Of a stretch of DNA of 64,000 nt, positions 8,976 to 58,202 are shown piece by piece (the stretch's first letter is position 1; every line of letters begins with the position of its first letter). The DNA lies in NCBI RefSeq assembly GCF_002735305.1, contig NZ_PDYG01000123.1, positions 62,001 to 126,000 on the forward strand, written 5' to 3'. The notes below the pieces were generated by a model. It was not told where the DNA came from. It did not search any database and worked only from the letters and a program-made list of their open reading frames with translations. This DNA comes from Agathobacter ruminis. Its GTDB lineage: Bacteria > Bacillota > Clostridia > Lachnospirales > Lachnospiraceae. A program made the position numbers and the translations under genes.

Positions 8976-10538
<1,563 letters not shown>

Positions 10539-10551
10539 CAGAAAAAATCAA

Positions 10552-10580
10552 GGGACTGCATTTGCAGTCCCTTTTTTATT
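10552..10580. terminator. Bidirectional terminator between guaB and the pilus operon
   Basis: Nine-base perfect stem, GGGACTGCA (10552-10560) and TGCAGTCCC (10563-10571), with a two-base loop, followed on the plus strand by TTTTTTATTTT. On the minus strand it lies directly after the stop at 10576 and is followed by TTGATTTTTT, so it can serve both convergent units. Confidence 0.9.
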
Positions 10581-12291
10581 TTGCTTCAAACGCTTTCATC
10601 AACAGAGCACGATACACCGGATTGTTCCACCAAACAGATTTTTCAGACAGCCCGGTTTGCAAATCTGCATACGGTTTAGAGATCAGTCTGACCCTGATTT
10701 TTCGACGAGATGATTCCGTATCCACGACAGTCAGATAAACTGTCTTCTTCGTACAATTGCCATCCGAATCGGTCGCTGCAAAAATAAGAGGAAGAGTTGC
10801 ACGATCTGCAAGTCGACCGATTGCGGCAGCATCATAATTCATAATCACCGGAGTCAATATCCCATCTTCCATATCATATGCGCGCGCATATTTGCAAAGA
10901 AATGCCTCAGTCAGCTTTCCGCTTCGCGCCTCCTGTACTGTAAAATACATGTCCCGCGCTTCCACCGCAGGAACCGCATCTGAGAGCGCATATATGGTAA
11001 TGACAGCCTGATCTGTATTCAAAACACCTGCTTCTTTTGCAAGTGCAGCAACAGTCATTTCTGTTTTTGCATCATACAGCTTCCCGCTCTTGGGCTTCGC
11101 ATGCAGACTCCATCCGGCAAAACTGTCCATCGGCGCATCCGGCATCACAATCGTCTGTGTCACATCCACTCTCATCGTTTTGATCACCGCTTGTGGATTT
11201 TGCCGTACAAAGCGGATGGTATATGTATTGGGCAGCCATATCGCATACAATTTTGTGCTTGCATAATGTTCTACAATCCAATTATCGCTCACGGCCGCTG
11301 TTGTTGAATAATCACGTCTGCTTTGACTGCGTGTACTGCCCCATCCGCTCTGATAATATCCGGCGCGTGTCCAGCCCGGATTAGGAAATGCCTGGTTCTT
11401 TTTTTGAAACTGAAAAGTCGCTTTGACACTGGTCTGATCCGTCCCACTTTGGTTACGATAAAAAGTAACCGTCGTCTTCATCACGGTTGCATATGCGGTC
11501 CATTTGGAATTGTCATTGACCAGAAAAGAGACTTTTGCAGTTGTCTCTGTCGAAGGCCCGCTCCATTTTGAAAAGGTATATCCCTTTTGCACCTGCGCCG
11601 ATATGACCGCTTTGGTGCCGTAACAATAGTTTCCTTCACCGGATACCGAAGCGATTCCGCTTCCTTTCGATAATTTCACGGAATAGAAAAGTCCCTGCAC
11701 CGATTTCCCGTAGTAGCTTTGCAATGCCACCTTCGATGCCACGGACCAGTCCTGTGCTCCGACAATCCCATCATAGGTTGTATAGACCACACCGCTGATC
11801 GGTCCGGAGTCATTCATGCTGCCCTGCACCACTCCATTTTTTACTACAACCATACATGCATTCAGCCGAATCGACACCTTGCCCTCCCGCAACAGATTCA
11901 GCGCCTGTCCTGTCATGCGCGATTGCATGTCCGACAACTGAAATGCATACAGATTGTATTCATAATCTCCGCTTTTTCGATTATCAACCCGCTTCAAATA
12001 TTTCCCGCCAAGCGCAAAATAGATTGTCTGCAGCAACTTGTCATTGTTATCACGGATCAGCAGTTTCCAGCCGATGGTACGATATTTGATTCCTGATGTA
12101 GAACTTGCCCCACGGCTTCCGAAATAGACTTTTCCGTCTTTTTCCGAGGTCGGATGAAAAACCGGCTCACCACCATATTCGAGATAATAGTCCGTAGCCT
12201 GGTTCCAGACGGATGCACGCACAGTCTGCGTACAACCGGTCCACAGAATCAACGCCAAAAGAAGCGGCCGGATATATTTTTTTGCCTTCAA
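10576..12291 (-). CDS. Secreted surface protein of the pilus operon
   Basis: A 571-residue exported protein, last gene of the Tad-like operon. The N-terminus has a signal sequence (IRPLLLALILWTGCTQTVRA) that could be cleaved at TVRA or lipidated at WTGC. Two segments resemble InlB B-repeat/beta-grasp modules: GYTFSKWSGPSTET near 240 and a second ending in KLYAIWLPNTY near 350. The C-terminal third resembles DUF5011-like Ig folds (YDMEDGILTPVIMNYD). No sortase motif is seen. Context suggests a pilus-associated or tip adhesin, but this is inference. It starts two bases after the preceding gene. Confidence 0.72.
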   Translation of the reverse strand: MKAKKYIRPLLLALILWTGCTQTVRASVWNQATDYYLEYGGEPVFHPTSEKDGKVYFGSRGASSTSGIKYRTIGWKLLIRDNNDKLLQTIYFALGGKYLKRVDNRKSGDYEYNLYAFQLSDMQSRMTGQALNLLREGKVSIRLNACMVVVKNGVVQGSMNDSGPISGVVYTTYDGIVGAQDWSVASKVALQSYYGKSVQGLFYSVKLSKGSGIASVSGEGNYCYGTKAVISAQVQKGYTFSKWSGPSTETTAKVSFLVNDNSKWTAYATVMKTTVTFYRNQSGTDQTSVKATFQFQKKNQAFPNPGWTRAGYYQSGWGSTRSQSRRDYSTTAAVSDNWIVEHYASTKLYAIWLPNTYTIRFVRQNPQAVIKTMRVDVTQTIVMPDAPMDSFAGWSLHAKPKSGKLYDAKTEMTVAALAKEAGVLNTDQAVITIYALSDAVPAVEARDMYFTVQEARSGKLTEAFLCKYARAYDMEDGILTPVIMNYDAAAIGRLADRATLPLIFAATDSDGNCTKKTVYLTVVDTESSRRKIRVRLISKPYADLQTGLSEKSVWWNNPVYRALLMKAFEAK

Positions 12292-12293
12292 AT

Positions 12294-12659
12294 CTATCCC
12301 TCCTGTTCTACAATCGCAGTCTTTTCATACTCCCGCTGTGTCATGATTCCAAATGGATTCCGATATTTTTCCGTAATGCAAACGGACAGAATCCCTTTGT
12401 CTGTATCACAGACTCTGACTGCAATCTCAAATTGCGAATCTGAAGCAATCCGGGTTGCCAGCTCCCCGGACAAAAGCGCACGGACTTGTGTTTCATCCGC
12501 TTTGGTTCCGTAAGATTGTTTTAATACAGTCGTAACTGCCCTTGAAAGGATATGCTCCATCTCGTTTTTGCGTGAGATATTTCCATAAATCGACATGCAG
12601 GTCAATATCGAATACAGCATAATCAGTCCACAGACTGTCCCCATAATAATATTTTTCAT
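12294..12659 (-). CDS. Pseudopilin-like membrane protein of the pilus operon
   Basis: A 121-residue protein with a single N-terminal membrane segment (IIMGTVCGLIMLYSILTCM) and a soluble outer domain of about 95 residues. It starts in an ATGA overlap with the preceding gene, so the two are coupled. The layout matches TadE/TadF-like minor pilins, which help to prime assembly, but the sequence itself is not recognised. Confidence 0.6.
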   Translation of the reverse strand: MKNIIMGTVCGLIMLYSILTCMSIYGNISRKNEMEHILSRAVTTVLKQSYGTKADETQVRALLSGELATRIASDSQFEIAVRVCDTDKGILSVCITEKYRNPFGIMTQREYEKTAIVEQEG

Positions 12660-49593: not shown

Positions 49594-50889
49594 CTACTCC
49601 ATTTCTGTATCATATGTATTGATGGAGATCCGTTCGTCACGGCATTCTTCTCTAAAATTCGCCACAATGCGCTCCTGAATCTGTGCAATCTGCTCCTGTG
49701 TTCCCGGATCCACCAAAATGAGCAAAAAGCTCGAAGTGGAATATCGGGTACAAACATCAACGCTTCGGATGGTTTCACGAATGGCATCCTCGAGTCTGAC
49801 CATTGTCTCCTCCGTCTCCTCACGTGTAAGCTTTTCGTTTTCACGAATTCCGAGCATCACCAGATGAAAACTGTGCTGGAATCTGCGCTTTAAGTTGCTG
49901 AAATATTCATAGAGTTTTGCGAACTCACGGAATTCGACATTCATTGCACCATGATAACTGCCAGATTTTTTGAGTGCGGATTTCAATCTTGTCAGATTGC
50001 CGCTGTCTTTCTGTTCCTCTTCATCATTGGTCTCTTTATATAAGAAATATCCGTCCTTACCATTTTGCTTTACATGATACAGGGCTTTGTCAGCCTTGCT
50101 GTATGCCTCTTTATAAGAAATCGCCGGATTCGTCTCCACCAGACCGATGGAAATGGATGCCGCACGAATTGCAATATCCTCTTCTTTCTTGGTCAGGAAT
50201 CCGGAGATCATCGCCTCAATCGTCTCGAACATTTTCTCTTTTGTAATATTCTTGATAAAGAGGAGAAATTCATCTCCGCCAAGGCGACATGTCAGTGCGG
50301 TACCGGCGCAGTCACTCAGAATTGTTCCAATCAGTTTCAGGACACGATCACCTGCCTCATGACCAATGGTATCATTGATGCGCTTAAGATTGTCGACATC
50401 GAGAAATGCCAGGAATCCCGGATCGCGTGACATTGCTTTTTCTATTTCAGATTCGCCGACCGTACGAATATTCAGTCCGGTCAGGCGATCCGTACTCAGC
50501 TCGCGCTGTCGTTCATTCAGCGTCAGGACACGATTGATGCGCTCACGCAGCACTTCTGCGACCATCGGCTTTGTAATAAAATCCATTACGCCCAGCTTAA
50601 AGCCTTCCACTTCGCTGGTTTTGTCATCATCCGCCGTCAGGATAATTACAGGCAGCTGGTCAAAGCGAACATCTTTTTTGAGTTCTGCCAGAACTTCAAA
50701 CCCACTCATATCCGGCATATGCAAATCCAAAAGCATCAGCGACGGAAGCGGATGTGTATCGAGGTATTCAAGCGCCTCACGGCCTGACATTGCCACATCC
50801 ACCCGATAGCGATATTTCAAGATGGCGGTCCCCAATTTGACATTTAAATTGTCGTCATCCACCAATAAAATTACCGTTTCCTTATTCAT
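49594..50889 (-). CDS. Response regulator with GGDEF diguanylate cyclase output
   Basis: A 431-residue protein. Residues 1-122 are a receiver domain with phospho-acceptor D55 (LMLLDLHMPDMSG), the acidic pair DDD11-13 and K108 (ITKPM). Residues about 130-290 are a GGDEF domain with an intact active site (CRLGGDEFLL, GGDEF at 204-208) and FLDVDNLKRINDTIGH; the inhibitory RxxD site is absent. Residues about 305-431 look like a second, degenerate GGDEF fold (RYSTSSFLLILVD). It should make c-di-GMP when phosphorylated. The ATG at 50889 overlaps the upstream stop (ATGA). Third gene of the phosphorelay operon. Confidence 0.92.
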   Translation of the reverse strand: MNKETVILLVDDDNLNVKLGTAILKYRYRVDVAMSGREALEYLDTHPLPSLMLLDLHMPDMSGFEVLAELKKDVRFDQLPVIILTADDDKTSEVEGFKLGVMDFITKPMVAEVLRERINRVLTLNERQRELSTDRLTGLNIRTVGESEIEKAMSRDPGFLAFLDVDNLKRINDTIGHEAGDRVLKLIGTILSDCAGTALTCRLGGDEFLLFIKNITKEKMFETIEAMISGFLTKKEEDIAIRAASISIGLVETNPAISYKEAYSKADKALYHVKQNGKDGYFLYKETNDEEEQKDSGNLTRLKSALKKSGSYHGAMNVEFREFAKLYEYFSNLKRRFQHSFHLVMLGIRENEKLTREETEETMVRLEDAIRETIRSVDVCTRYSTSSFLLILVDPGTQEQIAQIQERIVANFREECRDERISINTYDTEME

Positions 50890-52130
50890 ACACTCTCCCG
50901 GCCGATTACAGCCTCTATCTTTCTGCAATAACTATGATAATGCTCCATTACCTCTTCATGATGATCACATACATATGCATAATCACCATCTTTGCATGCG
51001 AATTCCAGCAAACGTGCTTCTTCCGACAGCTCATTCAGACCGATTGTCTTAGAAGAGCTCTTGAGCGCATGCACGGTCACACGATAGTCATTCCAGTTTT
51101 GCTCGTCCAGATAAGTTTTGAGCAAAACGGCCTTATCATCCGCCAGGTATTCCTGCAAAATCTCAATATATAATTCTGCATTATCCGCAACATAAACCAT
51201 ACCGGTGCGCCAATCGAGAAAATCCATTCTCTGCAACATCGCCATAGGCTCATTGGACTGTGGAAGCAATCCATTCTCCTCCGACTTGCGTGCAAAGAGC
51301 ACACCTACCGTACCGCTTCCGCAATTGCAGGAAATTGCAGCAGAAGCATCCACAAAAATAATGGATTCGAAATTCACACGGCGCAGAATTTCTTTTTTAA
51401 TCATATCAAGCATATCCGGCTCCAGTGCCACATGTGTCACAAAAACCCTTCTTGTATCAATATCCCGCGGGTGCTTCAGCAAATGATTCACATATTTGCG
51501 CACCACCGGATGCCAGCGTCCAAACATCACTTTTTTTACTGCAATTCGGCCCTGTTTCATATACAAAACCGGACGGAACAGCAGTCGGTATGAGAGATTG
51601 CGGACAAATCTGGACAATCGTTTGGCCCGATACATATATTCCAGGTCAAAGAGCAAAAATGCACTGCTGACCTTATCGGTATACGCTTCCAGCTTCTCGA
51701 TAATTGTATCCGCATCCATCATGCGCTCTGCCAATTCTGCCGCATAAAGTGCAATCAGCCCCAGTGAACTTGACAAATGCTTGGAGTGAAACACTCTGAC
51801 ATTTGAAAATTTTGCAGCTGCTGCAGTCGCATTATCATATCCCACGCTTGCATATCGTCCCATGGCAATATGTATGATTGTCTCTGCCTGATCAACACAG
51901 GACGCGAAGAAGGCTTCGTATTCTTCCACCTTTGGGCTTTGCGATTTTGCAAAATTTCCTGCACGGATGTAGGAGACCAGATCTTCTGACCCCACTTCGA
52001 TTTCATCGCGAAATCTGCCCTGCTCCGTGACAACATAATACGGATTGACGAGAATATGATACTGTTCTGTCAGCTGCCCCGGCAAATCGCATACACTGTC
52101 TGTTGTAATCAATACAGGAAGTTTATTCAT
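50886..52130 (-). CDS. DegV fatty-acid-binding domain fused to HPt phosphotransfer domain
   Basis: A 414-residue two-domain protein. Residues 1-285 match DegV/FakB proteins, which bind a fatty acid in a buried pocket: LITTDSVCDLPGQL, AKSQSPKVEEYEAFF, VFHSKHLSSSLGLIAL, LFDLEYMYRAKRLSRF and CNCGSGTVGVLFARKS. The usual serine-glycine-threonine of the second motif reads AMGRYASVGYDNA here. Residues about 305-412 form an HPt domain with the phospho-acceptor H354 in VHALKSSSKTIG. It overlaps the kinase gene by eight bases and the receiver-GGDEF gene by four, with ribosome site GGAGGT inside the kinase gene. A sensor-modulated phosphotransfer role is inferred. Confidence 0.88.
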   Translation of the reverse strand: MNKLPVLITTDSVCDLPGQLTEQYHILVNPYYVVTEQGRFRDEIEVGSEDLVSYIRAGNFAKSQSPKVEEYEAFFASCVDQAETIIHIAMGRYASVGYDNATAAAAKFSNVRVFHSKHLSSSLGLIALYAAELAERMMDADTIIEKLEAYTDKVSSAFLLFDLEYMYRAKRLSRFVRNLSYRLLFRPVLYMKQGRIAVKKVMFGRWHPVVRKYVNHLLKHPRDIDTRRVFVTHVALEPDMLDMIKKEILRRVNFESIIFVDASAAISCNCGSGTVGVLFARKSEENGLLPQSNEPMAMLQRMDFLDWRTGMVYVADNAELYIEILQEYLADDKAVLLKTYLDEQNWNDYRVTVHALKSSSKTIGLNELSEEARLLEFACKDGDYAYVCDHHEEVMEHYHSYCRKIEAVIGRESV

Positions 52131-53802
52131 TTTTGTTACCTCCCGTCAGTTCTTCCACGACTCGTTTGAGGCGCTCTATTTCTACCGGTTTCTCAACAAA
52201 CTCATCAAATCCCAGCTCAAGCAGCTGCACGCGTGCAGAGCTGGCGGCATTTGCCGTCAATGCCACAATCGGAACCTGCTGATAGAATCCGTTTCTGACA
52301 CTGCGGATCCGGCGAAGTGTCTCCTCGCCGTCCATTCCCGGCATCATATAATCCAAAAAGATAAAATCAAAATCTTCGAGCTCACAAAGTGCCAGTCCTT
52401 CGGATCCGCCCTCTGCAATCTTGACCTGATATCCGACGGTCTCAAGCATGCCACGAACCACTTTCAAATTCAGTCGTTCATCATCGATGACCAGAATCCT
52501 CGTATTCCCCGGTGCTGTCGTCTGCTCCTCTTTGACCGGTTCGATTGGCTTCTTTGCCTCAATAACCGCAGGCTTTTGCGGAATGGTCACGCGAATATCC
52601 GTACCGTTCCCTACGCGGCTCTTCACATAGATAAAGCCGTTCATGGCACGTGTCAGCTCATGTGCAATCGTAAATCCGATTCCGAGTCCGCTCGTCAGGC
52701 GCGCACTGTCTGCATCCTCTTTATAGGCGCCTTCAAACAGGCGATGAATCAGTTCTTTGCTCATTCCCACACCGGTATCACTGACCTCAAAAATCAAATT
52801 GATGCCATAATCTTCCCGGCGAGAGAATACACGCAGACGAATGCTGCCGTAGTTTGTAAATTTGTATGCATTATCAATCAGCTGGTGCATGGCCCGGACA
52901 ATCTTCTCCCCGTCACCGTACAAAAATGTCGGAATTGCCGAATCCACATCCACTGAAACTGCGAGATTCTTGCCATCGCGGTTCGCGTACAATGTATATG
53001 CACAGCGGTCCACCAGCTCACGGACATTATACACCTGCTCATTCAATACCATGGTTCCGGTATTTAATTCGGCATAATCCAGGATGCCATTGATTTGAGA
53101 CTGAATTCTCTGGCCGGACTGATGGATGTCATCAATCTGTCCCATCAATGATTCGTCCAGCTGCCGCTGCAGCAGGATCTCCGTCATTCCGTTGATTGCG
53201 GTAATCGGCGTACGCAGTTCATGGGATACATTGGCAAGCAGATTTTTGGTCTGATTGCGTGAAGTCTCGATTTCTTTTTGCATCTTGAGCAGTTCCTGTC
53301 TTTTATTTTCATTTGCACGAATAAAGAAATGTGAAATAAAAACGGACAGACCGACGCAGACCACGCCCAGAACCAGGCGCGAGAGAACCAGTTTGGTCAT
53401 GTTTTCGGACAGATATTGTGTGATAAATATATGATGCAATATCATCAGAGGATACGAGATTGAAATCAGATAAATCAAGCCCATATCTTCCTGTAAGGAT
53501 AAAACAATCAGAATCAGGCACAACACCAGCGGCATATCCGTGATGGATGCACGATGGCTGCCGTAATACATCAAAAACAGCGTGGCTGTAATCGTATAAA
53601 AATAGACGCGCTGTGATGCTGTTCCGATTTGCGTACAATGTGCAACCCAAATCAAAATCAATACCAGCAGGCACAAAATCCGAATCACAATCGGTCGCCC
53701 GGCACCTGTCTCCACCCACAACATAACCAGACCGAGAATTGTTAGTACACACAGATAAATCAAATGAAATGAGATTTCAAATTCTTTCCCTTTTTGTTTC
53801 AT
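52123..53802 (-). CDS. Hybrid sensor histidine kinase with receiver domain
   Basis: A 559-residue kinase. About six membrane spans occupy residues 10-165 with no large outer domain. Then HisKA with H194 (ANVSHELRTPITAING), HATPase with N311 (QLIDNAYKFTNYG), SDTGVGM and GLGIGFTIA, and a C-terminal receiver with D484 (FIFLDYMMPGMDGEE) and the lysine of VEKPVEI. Phosphate can pass from H194 to D484 and then needs an HPt protein, which the next gene supplies. GAGGATGAAGTT precedes the ATG. It starts 32 bases after the end of the transporter cluster. Confidence 0.94.
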   Translation of the reverse strand: MKQKGKEFEISFHLIYLCVLTILGLVMLWVETGAGRPIVIRILCLLVLILIWVAHCTQIGTASQRVYFYTITATLFLMYYGSHRASITDMPLVLCLILIVLSLQEDMGLIYLISISYPLMILHHIFITQYLSENMTKLVLSRLVLGVVCVGLSVFISHFFIRANENKRQELLKMQKEIETSRNQTKNLLANVSHELRTPITAINGMTEILLQRQLDESLMGQIDDIHQSGQRIQSQINGILDYAELNTGTMVLNEQVYNVRELVDRCAYTLYANRDGKNLAVSVDVDSAIPTFLYGDGEKIVRAMHQLIDNAYKFTNYGSIRLRVFSRREDYGINLIFEVSDTGVGMSKELIHRLFEGAYKEDADSARLTSGLGIGFTIAHELTRAMNGFIYVKSRVGNGTDIRVTIPQKPAVIEAKKPIEPVKEEQTTAPGNTRILVIDDERLNLKVVRGMLETVGYQVKIAEGGSEGLALCELEDFDFIFLDYMMPGMDGEETLRRIRSVRNGFYQQVPIVALTANAASSARVQLLELGFDEFVEKPVEIERLKRVVEELTGGNKNE

Positions 53803-53814
53803 AACTTCATCCTC

Positions 53815-53848
53815 AAAAAAAGAACCGCCGCAGATTACGGCGATTCTT
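53815..53848 (-). terminator. Terminator at the end of the transporter cluster
   Basis: Stem of about ten pairs (AGAACCGCCG at 53821-53830 with 53838-53848), followed by seven T residues on the minus strand. It overlaps the stop of the ApbE-like gene at 53835 and lies 13 bases before the kinase start, so the kinase operon needs either read-through or a promoter inside the ApbE-like gene. Confidence 0.85.
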
Positions 53849-55070
53849 TATACTCATTGTTTGGGAGATTCGTATATGCTTTTCCATTTTCGGTATAAAT
53901 GACATAGATTCCGTTTTTGGACAATGCATAAACAGCATCCACATCCCATTCATCGGTAATATAATGTGGAAGAAGCTGCAGCAAAATCTCCGCGCATCCG
54001 GAGTTTTCCGACGCCGCATACAGATATGGTATCGCGGCATAATCTTTTCCGTCTGACAAACTCATATAAGAACTACGGGCAGTGCCGTCGCCATATTTAT
54101 AATAACGGTATTTCTCCAAGTCTGCAACCGCAAAATCTTTCAGTACAACCGTTGCATTCATACCTGAAATTGTTTCATCCGCAATCTTTCCGGTTTTCGC
54201 CCCGTTCCGGCCGTAAATGGTACCGGTATAGGAATAGTCTTCCCTGTTCAGATAACGGGTATAGCCCTCATAGGAGCTGACAAAACCGTTGGTATATCCC
54301 TCTTCGGTCAGCTTATCGGCAATATAATCGCAGACAAATGCATTTCGCATATAAGACAATTCGACGAACTGATCGATTTCATTGTCTTTCGCGAATTGCA
54401 TATATTCCTGTGAAACCTTTAAACAAACCTGATTGTTTCCCTTTTTCTCAATTTGAATCTGTTGCGGATCACGCGCAAAATCTGCGATTTTTTGATAAAA
54501 ATCTGCCAGACTCTGTTCCCTGTACGGATCATAATCCGATGCAATCACATCATCTTCACTTTGAAACAGATTCGTCGATAATGCATATACCGGTCCAAGA
54601 TAAATCCAGCGCGCATCATATTGTTCTAAGGTCTCAAGGGCCTGATACAATTCTTTTGAAACGGTCAGCGTTTCATTTGGATGCTGATTCAAATCATACA
54701 GATTTGCGCTGTCTTTGCCCTGTTCATCCGCATTAAAAATATCATATGCCTCTGTCAGTGCCTCTGTATAGGTTGCGGTAACATTCCTCTTTTCGACGCC
54801 TGCGCTCACACCCGAACGCCCGATGTCATATTGTAAGGAAAATTCCGAACTGTAGTTGGTCTCCTGTGATGATTCAATGGTGATTTCCTGCCAACCATCC
54901 TGTGTTCCAAAATAGCGTGCGCAGGAATGCGCCAGCAAAATCGTACCAATCAGTAAAAGCACTCCGGCCGCGATTGCACGCGGCCAGAAATATTTCTCTG
55001 AAATATTAACTTTTTCAATTTTCGGGCCAAAGCGTTCTTTGACCCGCGTTTTAACATATCTCTTTGACAT
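53835..55070 (-). CDS. Membrane-anchored, diverged ApbE-like protein
   Basis: A 411-residue protein with one N-terminal span (AIAAGVLLLIGTILLAHSCA) and an outer domain. The order of elements resembles ApbE flavin transferases: SVSKELYQALETLEQY-like helix (here LTVSKELYQALETLEQY), IDQFVELSYMRNAFVCDYIA followed by DKLTEEGYTNGFVSSYEGY, which parallels the family's KGYAAD...GG segment but lacks the key lysine and glycines. It may bind FAD or a peptide without catalysis. It begins one base after the oppF stop and so is co-transcribed with the transporter. The ApbE relation is tentative. Confidence 0.55.
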   Translation of the reverse strand: MSKRYVKTRVKERFGPKIEKVNISEKYFWPRAIAAGVLLLIGTILLAHSCARYFGTQDGWQEITIESSQETNYSSEFSLQYDIGRSGVSAGVEKRNVTATYTEALTEAYDIFNADEQGKDSANLYDLNQHPNETLTVSKELYQALETLEQYDARWIYLGPVYALSTNLFQSEDDVIASDYDPYREQSLADFYQKIADFARDPQQIQIEKKGNNQVCLKVSQEYMQFAKDNEIDQFVELSYMRNAFVCDYIADKLTEEGYTNGFVSSYEGYTRYLNREDYSYTGTIYGRNGAKTGKIADETISGMNATVVLKDFAVADLEKYRYYKYGDGTARSSYMSLSDGKDYAAIPYLYAASENSGCAEILLQLLPHYITDEWDVDAVYALSKNGIYVIYTENGKAYTNLPNNEYKESP

Positions 55071-56372
55071 TTAGAAATGAATTCCTATAAATCCAATCAG
55101 ATAGAACAAAATAATCAATCCAAGCAAAATGAAGAAGAGCTTCACACCGCGCTTACAAGCTTTGTAATTGCGGATATAATTGTGCTTCTTGAAAAGAATT
55201 GCTGCAATAATACCAGGGATGAAAAGCAGGAAACTCAAAACAGTCAGCCATACATTTCCGGTATCATGAAGCGGAGGAAGTTTGATTTCCTCTGCTCTAA
55301 GCTCCGTTGCCTTCTCCGCGTTTCCAAACTCATCTTTCTTGTTTGGATCTACGATGGTGATGGACTGAAGCGGTACATTCTTCTCACGGATTGCCTTATA
55401 TTCTTCGATTTCTTTCTTGTTGCCCCATACCCAGTGATTATGTCCGATATTGACAAATTCAGGCTGATCCTCACTGTAATCATGAATGGATGGATCATAG
55501 ATATAGAGTTTTTTGTTTTTCTCAAGCTGCGGATCCGGAATCGGGATTGCAGACAAAAGGGAGCGTGTGTACGGATGCAATGGGAAATTAAATAATTCCT
55601 CTGACTCTGCAACCTCCACAATATTTCCTTTGTAAATAACACCGATACGGTCTGAGATGAATCTTACTACAGAAAGGTCATGCGCAATGAAAAGGTAGGT
55701 TACCTCTTTCTCTTTCTGGAATTTCTTTAACAGGTTCAATACCTGTGCACGGATGGAAACATCCAATGCAGAAATCGGTTCATCCGCAACAACAAGTTCC
55801 GGTTCCATAACCATCGCACGGGCAATTCCGATACGCTGGCGCTGTCCGCCGGAGAACTCGTGTGGATAACGGGTCAAATGCTCCGGAAGCAAACCAACCT
55901 CCTGAATCATATGCTCTACCTTTGAGACACGCTCTGCCTCATTCTCATAGAGTTTGAAATTGGTCAGACCTTCCGAAATAATATAGTCAACCGTAGCACG
56001 CTCATTCAGAGAAGCGGCCGGGTCCTGAAATACCATTTGTACGTTTCGAATCACTTCACGGTCAAGGCTCTTCGGGATTTTGCCGGAAATACGCACACCC
56101 TTGTAATCAATCTCTCCTGCTGAAAGAGGATTGACACGGATGACCGCACGACCGATTGTGGTCTTACCGGATCCGGATTCTCCTACCAGCGAGAAAGTCT
56201 CGCCTTTGTAAATATCAAAGCTGGCATTCTTGACAGCCTTGACAGCAGACTCGCCTTTGCCGAATGTGATATCAATATTCTTGACCGAGAGTAAAATCTC
56301 GCGGCCATTCTCATCTACCGGACCATGCTCCGGAAAGTGCGATGCACTATTATTTGTTTGATTATTAGACAC
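55071..56372 (-). CDS. oppF: Oligopeptide ABC transporter ATPase OppF with C-terminal membrane segments
   Basis: A 433-residue ATPase. Walker [14 protein letters not shown]-loop [11 protein letters not shown], signature [15 protein letters not shown], Walker [16 protein letters not shown] and the switch histidine in [11 protein letters not shown] are intact. The usual C-terminal OppF region ([17 protein letters not shown]) is followed by about 110 extra residues with two hydrophobic spans ([20 protein letters not shown] and [20 protein letters not shown]). The subunit would itself be anchored in the membrane. It follows oppD by 15 bases. Confidence 0.93.
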
Positions 56373-56387
56373 GATTTTTCTCTCCTA

Positions 56388-58202
56388 TTACAGATTATAT
56401 GTTTTTAACAGCTTCTCATGAATATCCTGGATGATTTCAGGTTTGTCAACCTTTGGTGCATCCGGATGAAGAAGCCATGTTCTGGCGTAATGTGTATCCG
56501 TCACCTTAAACATTGGCGGCTCTGCAAGTGTATCCACCTTCAGGCAATATGGGTTACGCGGTGCAAAAGCATCTCCCACAATCGCATTGTAAAGTGATGG
56601 CGGTGTACCGGTAATGGAATACAGTTTTGCATTCTTGGTCGCAAGCTGTGGAAGGGATGAAAGCAATGCCCAGGTATATGGGTGCTTTGGATCGTAAAAT
56701 ACTTCCTCAACTGTTCCTACTTCAATTACCTGTCCTGCATATAATACAGCTACACGGTCAGCCACATTCGCAACAACACCGAGATCGTGTGTAATAAATA
56801 CAGTTGTGAAATTAAATTCTTTCTGCAGATCCTTGATCAACTGAAGAATCTGTGCCTGAATGGTTACATCGAGCGCTGTAGTCGGCTCGTCACAAATCAG
56901 AATCTTTGGCTGGCAGGAAAGTGCGATTGCGATAACAATACGCTGTCTCATACCACCGGAATACTGGAACGGATAATCATCAAAACGCTGTTCCGGATTC
57001 GGGATTCCAACTTTGCCCATGATTTCAATTGCACGAAGTCTTGCATCATTTTCAGAGCAATGCTGATGCTTCATGATAATGGATGAAATCTGCTTACCGA
57101 TGGTAAGAATCGGGTTCAAAGAAGTCATCGGATCCTGGAATACGGTTGCGATCTTTGCACCACGCACCTGCATCCAGTCTGTTGCATCATTAAAGCTTGC
57201 AAGGTTCAAAATGCAATATCCGTGAAGCAGCATCTTCTGTGATTTCTCATCCGTGCGAAGCGGCTGATCCGGATGAAGAAGCTTTTCATGCTCTGCAACC
57301 GTAATTTCATTTAAGAACTTCACACGGAAGGTAACTGCATCAAATACCTGATTGCGCTCTGACTCGTTGTTTAAGTCTACGCCCATCTCCATTGCCTTGC
57401 GCAGTGCTTCAAGCAATCCCTTGATGCACTTTCTGCGCTTGCGAAGGCTGAAGCGGCCTGATGAAAGCAGGATTTCTTTTGCGAGCACAAGGTTGCGTTC
57501 TTTGGTCTCTTCAGAGACAGCCTGCTTGATGGCCTCATCATATTTTGCTTTGAGCGCTGCCTTCTTTTCATGATACTGTCTCATGAATTCAGGATCCTGC
57601 TCAGCAGCATTTTTGCGCTCCTTCTTCAAATCGTCGCGCTTCTTCTCATAAGCTTTGTATTCAGCTTCCATTTCTTTGAGACGTGCAGAAGCTTCTTTGA
57701 TCTTGTCTTTTTCCTGTTTCGGATCATAGGTCTGCTTTAAGTTAAAGAGGTTGATCCGGTCGTCCTTCATTGCTTTTAAGTTCTTTTTGAATTCTGCCTC
57801 TTCCTCATCAGAAAGACCGTTCTTGGCACGCTTTTGCGCATCAAGTTCGAGCATTTCTTTGTAAATATCCGCACCGAATTCAAGATGTGAATACTCATTC
57901 AATTTTTCGGCAAATGCAGCTACCAGACGCTTTGCAGAGTCGTCATAAGCAACTACGGTATCTGACAATTCCTCATCGTTGAAGATGATGGATCCCTGGT
58001 CAATAAAGCCATTGGTATCGAGCATGCCGGCAAATGTCTTGGTAAATACGGATTTACCTGATCCGGACTCTCCTACGATTGCAATTGTCTCATTTTCATA
58101 AATATCGAGCGAAATTCCACGAATCGCTGTAAGAATACGACCACGCACACGGAATTTCACATATAAATCTTTAATCGATAAGATTGTTTTCTTGTTTTCC
58201 AT
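56388..58202 (-). CDS. oppD: Oligopeptide ABC transporter ATPase OppD with large insertion
   Basis: A 604-residue ATPase, against about 330-350 for the family. Walker A GESGSGKS at 44-51 is followed by a charged, helical insertion from about 80 to 345 ([20 protein letters not shown]), after which the normal sequence resumes with Q356 ([13 protein letters not shown]), signature [15 protein letters not shown], Walker [15 protein letters not shown] and [14 protein letters not shown]. The insertion replaces the short loop between Walker A and the Q-loop. All catalytic motifs are intact, so it should be active. Confidence 0.92.

Follow-up and report, generated by a model that had tools for sequence, protein, structure and literature searches.

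The window analysed here, 64,000 nucleotides of an Agathobacter ruminis contig (NZ_PDYG01000123.1), carries the gene of a DegV-HPt fusion within a three-gene relay operon, placed between the genes of a hybrid histidine kinase (HK1) and of a response regulator with a receiver (REC) and a GGDEF domain. The fusion on which the original prediction, made from the sequence alone, had centred is real, but it is not the main unit: DegV-HPt is a rare derivative, seen in 2 species, of a large family of hybrid kinases with the layout histidine kinase (HK)-REC-DegV, and this family rather than the lone fusion is the unit to study. From the distribution of HPt domains within the family, one HPt appears to serve both HK1 and the DegV protein, and the DegV appears to belong to the relay.

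The three-gene operon and its second copy

Using open reading frames and Pfam matches, three overlapping minus-strand genes were identified at window positions 49594-53802, coding for the hybrid kinase, DegV-HPt and REC-GGDEF (Table 1). The first two overlap by 8 nucleotides (52123-52130), the last two by 4 nucleotides (ATGA, 50886-50889). All three genes and the residues H194, D484, H354, D55 and GGDEF 204-208 were found exactly where the original prediction had placed them. It had further claimed a complete His-Asp-His-Asp chain in gene order with a diguanylate cyclase at its end, and with all domains and phospho-acceptor residues present this holds at the level of anatomy. Residues of the REC-GGDEF protein were numbered from the ATG at 50889; the start set by the open reading frame caller was the TTG at 50928. 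Beside the GGDEF motif this protein has D164, which we take to be a metal-binding Asp as in diguanylate cyclases. The DegV domain reached 132 bits in Pfam (cutoff 27) and 148.9 bits for TIGR00762 (cutoff 99.7), while the Hpt match was modest and above the Pfam cutoff (29.2 versus 24.6 bits). The membrane sensor of HK1 was modelled with a pLDDT of 92.6 (AlphaFold-type confidence); no structural match in the PDB at E <= 0.001 was found for it, and no Pfam match in the window protein. This sensor is common to 24 aligned family members, with Trp52 invariant. Since a weak terminator-like site (53841-53824) immediately precedes the kinase gene, the trio may form its own transcription unit; the same pattern match gave 8 sites in the region versus 4.3 expected.

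The same three genes in the same order, coding for 557, 434 and 431 amino acids (aa), were found at locus L115 of a Lachnospiraceae metagenome-assembled genome (MAG), SIG321. At aligned codons, identity to the window was 57.5% for the kinase, 55.6% for DegV-HPt and 68.7% for REC-GGDEF, and H194, D484, H354, D55, the GGDEF motif and D164 were all retained. Codon differences fell mostly on third positions (0.54-0.57 versus 0.19-0.22 at second positions). This bias and the retention of every acceptor residue argue for relay genes that are maintained as proteins. Synteny between the window and L115 reaches both flanks, where the downstream genes NAGPA and PGM are 80% and 93% identical, so that the signalling genes diverge faster than their flanks. 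The original prediction had allowed for the fusion being a sequencing artefact. The same operon in the independent L115 and the third-position codon differences make an assembly artefact or a chance reading frame very unlikely.

The family of kinase-linked DegV proteins

A genome search for DegV-HPt fusions and their neighbours, as proposed in the original prediction, yielded the 2 species and uncovered the wider HK-REC-DegV family. In a sample of 250 genomes of the window's family (matches with E up to 1e-20), 37 had an open frame of at least 500 aa that matched over the DegV part, a count that leaves out G010 (509-aa frame, 27% identity). Architectures were read in 40 regions taken from 30 of the 37 genomes or their loci, and in L015, L204, L205 and L216-L218. 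In GTDB species genomes, 426 relatives were detected by tblastn. Among the best 80 of these 426, which were examined, 76 were HK-REC-DegV and 1 was DegV-HPt (L115); the remaining loci were one DegV-HK-REC (L137, with length and gene positions identical to those of L048), one DegV-HK-REC-HPt (L162) and one DegV cut by a contig end (L168). Carriers include Lachnospiraceae and Oscillospiraceae, for example Acetatifactor muris (L123 being the culturable strain DSM 23669) and Oscillibacter sp., and many are MAGs. A DegV frame of about 414 aa occurred in the window genome only among 31 relatives, and otherwise in L115 only among the loci read. The window genome has a second DegV module, L015, with an HK-REC-DegV gene directly after an HK-REC-HPt gene and near a REC-HD-GYP gene. 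In 10 of the 80 GTDB loci HK-REC-DegV is followed by a gene like L161 9872-10684, the L161 copy of which codes for a family 3 solute-binding protein.

The link between DegV and HPt was scored for the 117 distinct DegV proteins that remained of 122 once 5 with identical domains had been removed; the partner was defined as a kinase gene at most 400 bp upstream on the same strand, and HPt presence was read by local profile. HK-REC-DegV proteins without HPt had an HK-REC-HPt partner in 92/92 scored pairs. HPt-bearing DegV proteins (6 HK-REC-DegV-HPt, 2 DegV-HPt and 1 DegV-HK-REC-HPt) had an HK-REC partner without HPt in 9/9. As the HPt sits either on the partner or on the DegV protein, DegV and HPt would be tied to one relay. 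The other 16 of the 117 comprised 12 HK-REC-DegV without a scored partner, 1 HK-REC-DegV-HPt at a contig end, and L048, L071 and L168. Of the 12, 9 lie near record ends, L052 and L140 have a partner split in two frames, and the partner of L184 lies beyond 400 bp; L048 is cut and has an HK-REC partner, L071 is a lone DegV after HK-REC-HPt, and L168 is cut. L218 and L219, added later, also fit the pattern.

For the output, the 102 distinct loci whose record extends more than 4 kb upstream were searched by local profiles for same-strand genes up to 4.5 kb upstream and 2.5 kb downstream; the count covered GGDEF and HD-GYP genes only. A GGDEF or HD-GYP gene was found near 46 of the 102 loci (20/35 in the family sample, 26/67 in the GTDB set). 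In L216 (1790-7433) and L217 (1951-7621) the DegV gene precedes a pair of GGDEF genes, and a single GGDEF gene lies near L219. The window genome holds 29 GGDEF and 3 PilZ matches.

A class search of 393 genomes listed matches in kinase-like frames at 299 bits or more (412.7 for the window DegV-HPt) and others at 284 bits or less. This gap was considered as a rule to separate kinase-linked from lone DegVs and dropped, because in the local profile the divergent L216, L217 and L218 (270, 265 and 213 bits) overlap with the lone L206-L214 (232-276 bits) or fall short of them, so that score alone fails to separate the two. L218 is a divergent HK-REC-DegV. L216 and L217 are HATPase-DegV proteins in which local profiles detected no REC, and Pfam detected neither HisKA nor REC in L216; they are possibly a pseudokinase version of the family. 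In the 469-aa frame of L214 the only domain found is a C-terminal DegV.

A DegV tree was built from 60 kinase-linked and 17 lone sequences and FakB2 (78 rows), with the divergent L199-L205 and L216-L218 left out; in it, the kinase-linked DegVs formed one side of a branch with SH-aLRT 100. The window and L115 paired (100) and then joined L048 and L162 (96). A tree of 66 kinase domains placed the window kinase among HK1 kinases which elsewhere bear HPt, not among the DegV-fused kinases. From these trees a likely route would start with an ancestral two-kinase module, HK1-REC-HPt and HK2-REC-DegV; the second gene would have been split before DegV and DegV fused to another HK-REC-HPt, as in L162, and in the window lineage the HK-REC so joined to DegV would then have been lost, leaving DegV-HPt without a second kinase. 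The HPt tree, with two starred branches only, cannot confirm this last step.

The DegV domain and the proposed working of the relay

Structure prediction, which the original prediction had named as a check, gave a confident FakB-like fold with an HPt helical bundle (pTM 0.73), in which a short flexible linker (residues 288-292) joins DegV to a helical HPt; H354 lies within one of the helices. The nearest solved structures found by Foldseek were DegV/FakB proteins, with a target TM of 0.90 for FakB2 (4x9x), and the window DegV aligns with FakB2 over the full length with one-residue gaps only inside the domain. In FakB2, Thr61, Ser93 and His266 are presumably the head-group residues. This trio is incomplete in the window, where S63 and S95 keep the hydroxyls and His266 is replaced by N269; Arg170 (R171), Gly268 and Gly270 are kept, and Ser89/Ser90 are replaced by Gly/Arg. 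The FakB1 equivalog NF038249 scored 70.2 bits, far from its cutoff of 350.

Comparing the 117 kinase-linked with 33 lone DegVs, position 266 was Asn in 112/117 versus His in 31/33, the His being lost in 116/117. Ser/Thr61 was found in 111/117 versus 33/33, Ser93 in 97/117 versus 33/33, Arg170 in 70/117 versus 33/33, and Lys/Arg90 in 84/117 versus 0/33; Gly268 was present in all 117. We are aware that these totals are biased, as 75 of the sequences are best matches of the GTDB scan to window-like DegVs, and that the lone controls (best Pfam matches plus five from the own genome) favour canonical residues. The other 42, which form the family sample, gave Ser/Thr61 in 36, Ser93 in 27, Asn266 in 38, Lys/Arg90 in 18 and Arg170 in 19. 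The class search added 8 non-duplicate kinase-linked DegVs (L195, L197, L199, L200, L201, L203, L204, L205), for which the numbers were 4, 2, 8, 1 and 1. The lone DegVs nearest to the kinase-linked group (L206-L214) have His266 in 8/9. Judged by these alignments, Asn266 is the sole change that steadily accompanies recruitment to kinases, and S63, R92, S95 and N269 all occur together in the window. Two deviations were seen: HK-REC-DegV of L015 has Ala at the position of His266, and L199, L200, L201 and L203 have Glu at that of Ser93, with Pro at Thr61 in 3 of the 4, which makes for a quite different head-group site.

Position 170 of FakB2 is presumably that of Arg173 in FakB1. As this Arg is essential for the kinase reaction according to the available part of PMC9136124, its relaxation in the family would agree with a domain released from its service to FakA, even if the window itself keeps the Arg. 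The same part of that source assigns Arg205 of FakB1 to docking to FakA and the membrane; Arg at this position was unconserved in both alignments, which place the column differently. Roles of the head-group residues are not given in the available parts of PMC10146087, PMC12594616 and PMC7773995.

The reading that we prefer, and whose chances we regard as about even, is a single linear phosphorelay to the cyclase, derived from a two-kinase module and modulated by ligand binding to DegV. The membrane kinase HK1 would autophosphorylate at H194 and pass the phosphate to D484 of its own REC, from there it would move to H354 of DegV-HPt and on to D55 of REC-GGDEF, and phosphorylation of D55 would set the synthesis of cyclic di-GMP (c-di-GMP). 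DegV would be the ligand-binding input that modulates transfer, most likely by taking up an acyl-type amphiphile in a tunnel like that of FakB, in which the head-group site has changed. This reading is favoured by the acceptor residues kept in L115, the overlapping genes, the HPt complementarity, the kinase of the HK1 clade, the nearby GGDEF or HD-GYP genes, the GGDEF and PilZ matches of the genome, the FakB-like fold and the Asn266 counts (112/117 and 8/8). Its His-Asp-His-Asp route to a diguanylate cyclase is well supported by anatomy, the course of the phosphate and the c-di-GMP output being predicted; lipid sensing by the putative sensor DegV is plausible, and the identity of the ligand and the gating of H354 are speculative.

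Several observations weigh against this reading. At 36 of the 102 loci a lone REC was found without a nearby GGDEF or HD-GYP gene, and at 20 neither was present. The complementarity cases share ancestry, at least two clades having HPt on DegV, and do not count as 101 independent cases; moreover, extra HK-REC-HPt genes of another clade adjoin L046, L080 and L162. The head-group hydroxyls are unevenly kept (36/42 and 27/42; 4/8 and 2/8), the totals for 117 leaning on selected loci, and with the His266 of FakB lost, fatty-acid binding may be gone. A DegV acting as a ligand-free structural module for docking or dimerisation, which positions HPt or REC in a relay that works and senses nothing through it, is to be taken seriously, although we would not expect it. 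The loss of His266, the Arg170 count, the replaced S89/S90 and a head-group site that is not uniform in the family sample (Ser93 27/42, Lys/Arg90 18/42) all speak for such a module. On the other hand, the replacement of His266 is uniform, and pure decay of the site is disfavoured because it would scatter the residues at 266 more. Gly268 without exception and the full-length alignment with FakB2 at a target TM of 0.90 likewise speak against such a module.

Acetyl phosphate is a phosphodonor for receivers. DegV could similarly bring an acyl-phosphate made by FakA, the mixed anhydride of which would be the phosphodonor of the relay, so that fatty-acid activation would feed c-di-GMP directly. The window genome has one FakA and five DegVs whose frames are as long as those of lone proteins. 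FakB retains acyl-phosphate once the kinase reaction is over (available part of PMC9136124), and a phosphate would be well accommodated by Arg92, which stands at position 90 of FakB2. However, the kinase-essential Arg of FakB is kept in 70/117 only, even though the window has it, and the head group would have to reach the Asp or His; we hold such a donor to be highly improbable. Seven HPt matches in the genome indicate more than one relay and make cross-talk possible, and DegV-HPt could, instead of serving the adjacent kinase and cyclase, drain phosphate from other kinases of the cell as their common sink. This is improbable as well, given overlapping genes that stay together in two species despite diverging faster than PGM and NAGPA, and the HPt complementarity with the adjacent HK1.

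As a rule, HPt proteins are regarded as passive carriers. One with a ligand-binding domain, if true, would act as a regulated gate midway through a relay. Beyond the linear relay of the window, it may tentatively be proposed, with more doubt than confidence, that many Lachnospiraceae and Oscillospiraceae read an intracellular lipid (fatty acid or acyl-phosphate) via DegV in a multi-step phosphorelay, as a Firmicute counterpart of the diffusible signal factor (DSF)-RpfC/RpfG system built from a different protein, with the phosphate carrier of the window being the sensor. With a metabolic lipid-carrier fold built into hybrid kinases, next to c-di-GMP enzymes at 46 of the 102 loci, the question of what these bacteria sense, and for what reason, can be approached directly. 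The operon of the window, with one kinase, one DegV-HPt and one cyclase, is the simplest version seen and for this reason best suited for testing the relay logic in vitro.

Features of the region and related systems

Table 1. Features of the relay operon in the window and of the L015 module.
Feature	Position	Strand	Evidence
Hybrid histidine kinase HK1	52123..53802	-	Pfam HisKA 2.1e-16, HATPase_c 6.1e-20, Response_reg 1.2e-25
HK1 membrane sensor	about residues 1-165	-	5 hydrophobic segments
H194, HisKA phospho-accepting His (SHELRTP)	53221..53223	-	residue position; kept in L115
D484, kinase REC phospho-accepting Asp	52351..52353	-	residue position; kept in L115
DegV-HPt fusion, 414 aa	50886..52130	-	Pfam DegV 3.4e-38, Hpt 1.1e-6; AlphaFold pLDDT 94.3
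DegV (EDD/FakB-like) domain, residues 1-282	51285..52130	-	Foldseek 1pzx 4.9e-24; FakB2 4x9x target TM 0.90
S63, at FakB2 Thr61	51942..51944	-	alignment to FakB2
R92, at FakB2 Ser90	51855..51857	-	Lys/Arg in 84/117 kinase-linked (18/42 family sample), 0/33 lone
S95, at FakB2 Ser93	51846..51848	-	alignment to FakB2
N269, at FakB2 His266	51324..51326	-	Asn in 112/117 kinase-linked DegVs
HPt domain with N-terminal cap helices, residues 294-414	50889..51251	-	Pfam Hpt 29.2 bits; modelled helical bundle
H354, HPt phospho-accepting His (VHALKSSS)	51069..51071	-	residue position; kept in L115
REC-GGDEF response regulator, 431 aa from ATG	49594..50889	-	Pfam Response_reg 1e-25, GGDEF 1.8e-35
D55, output REC phospho-accepting Asp	50725..50727	-	residue position; kept in L115
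GGDEF motif, residues 204-208	50266..50280	-	residue position; kept in L115
Second GGDEF-like domain, degenerate, without GGDEF motif, C-terminus of REC-GGDEF	49624..49899	-	24.9 bits, Pfam cutoff 23.8
L015 module	9795-12485 and 7030-9783 of L015		HK-REC-DegV beside HK-REC-HPt

Directly upstream of the kinase gene, window positions 53835-55070 code for a 411-aa, probably membrane-anchored protein without a significant Pfam family; it is 62% identical in L115, a divergence about that of the relay genes. Two oligopeptide-type ABC ATPases lie beyond it. The one at 55071-56372 has a hydrophobic C-terminal tail, probably membrane-spanning as judged by eye, and the one at 56388-58202 (604 aa, 83% identity in L115) has a long charged insert within the ATPase domain. 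A mobile or phage origin of the fusion was considered and rejected. One scan of viral contigs with a single protein as query gave no relative, and the 16 matching records of the plasmid collection were all below 60% identity, and in none did a single place span 80% of the query; one of them, from [Eubacterium] eligens, holds a lone-sized DegV gene with a REC gene next to it on the opposite strand.

That no DegV-HPt relay had been described, as the original prediction supposed, agrees with the open-licence literature, in which we found no description of DegV-HPt or of a kinase-linked DegV family. In their available parts, PMC9912610 has DegV as a separate protein only and PMC3146951 as a gene neighbour of hemolysin III only. 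With FakB/DegV proteins (PF02645; FakB2 4x9x, 1pzx, TM841 1mgp) the window shares the full-length fold, the hydroxyls at 61 and 93, Arg170 and Gly268/Gly270. It differs from them, as does the family, by the fusion of DegV to HPt or hybrid kinases and by the change of His266 to Asn, and in the family Arg170 is unconserved.

A kinase drives a REC-GGDEF diguanylate cyclase in PleC/DivJ-PleD and WspE-WspR; both share this with the window and are not known to have a DegV-bearing HPt protein. Relays with a separate HPt, of which we take LuxU to be an example, resemble the window in that a hybrid kinase without HPt passes the phosphate to a separate HPt protein. To our knowledge, separate HPts of the PA1396 or LuxU type are without a ligand-binding domain, unlike DegV-HPt. 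PA1396, likewise of this kind, is a hybrid kinase with an orphan HPt in the available part of PMC4504480. The same part describes RpfC/RpfG of Xanthomonas, in which a five-helix membrane kinase (HK-REC-HPt) acts on REC-HD-GYP, with the fatty-acid signal DSF and c-di-GMP as output. HK1 likewise has five hydrophobic segments and a predicted c-di-GMP output, and the RpfC/RpfG layout, REC-HD-GYP with HK-REC-HPt, is common in the family, L015, L050 and L118 being examples. In difference to it, the family has a second, DegV-bearing hybrid kinase, and the window itself, with HK-REC, DegV-HPt and REC-GGDEF, departs from the layout in having synthesis as output and the HPt on DegV. RpfC/RpfG thus appears to be the nearest functional analogue, by likeness of function and not by membership.

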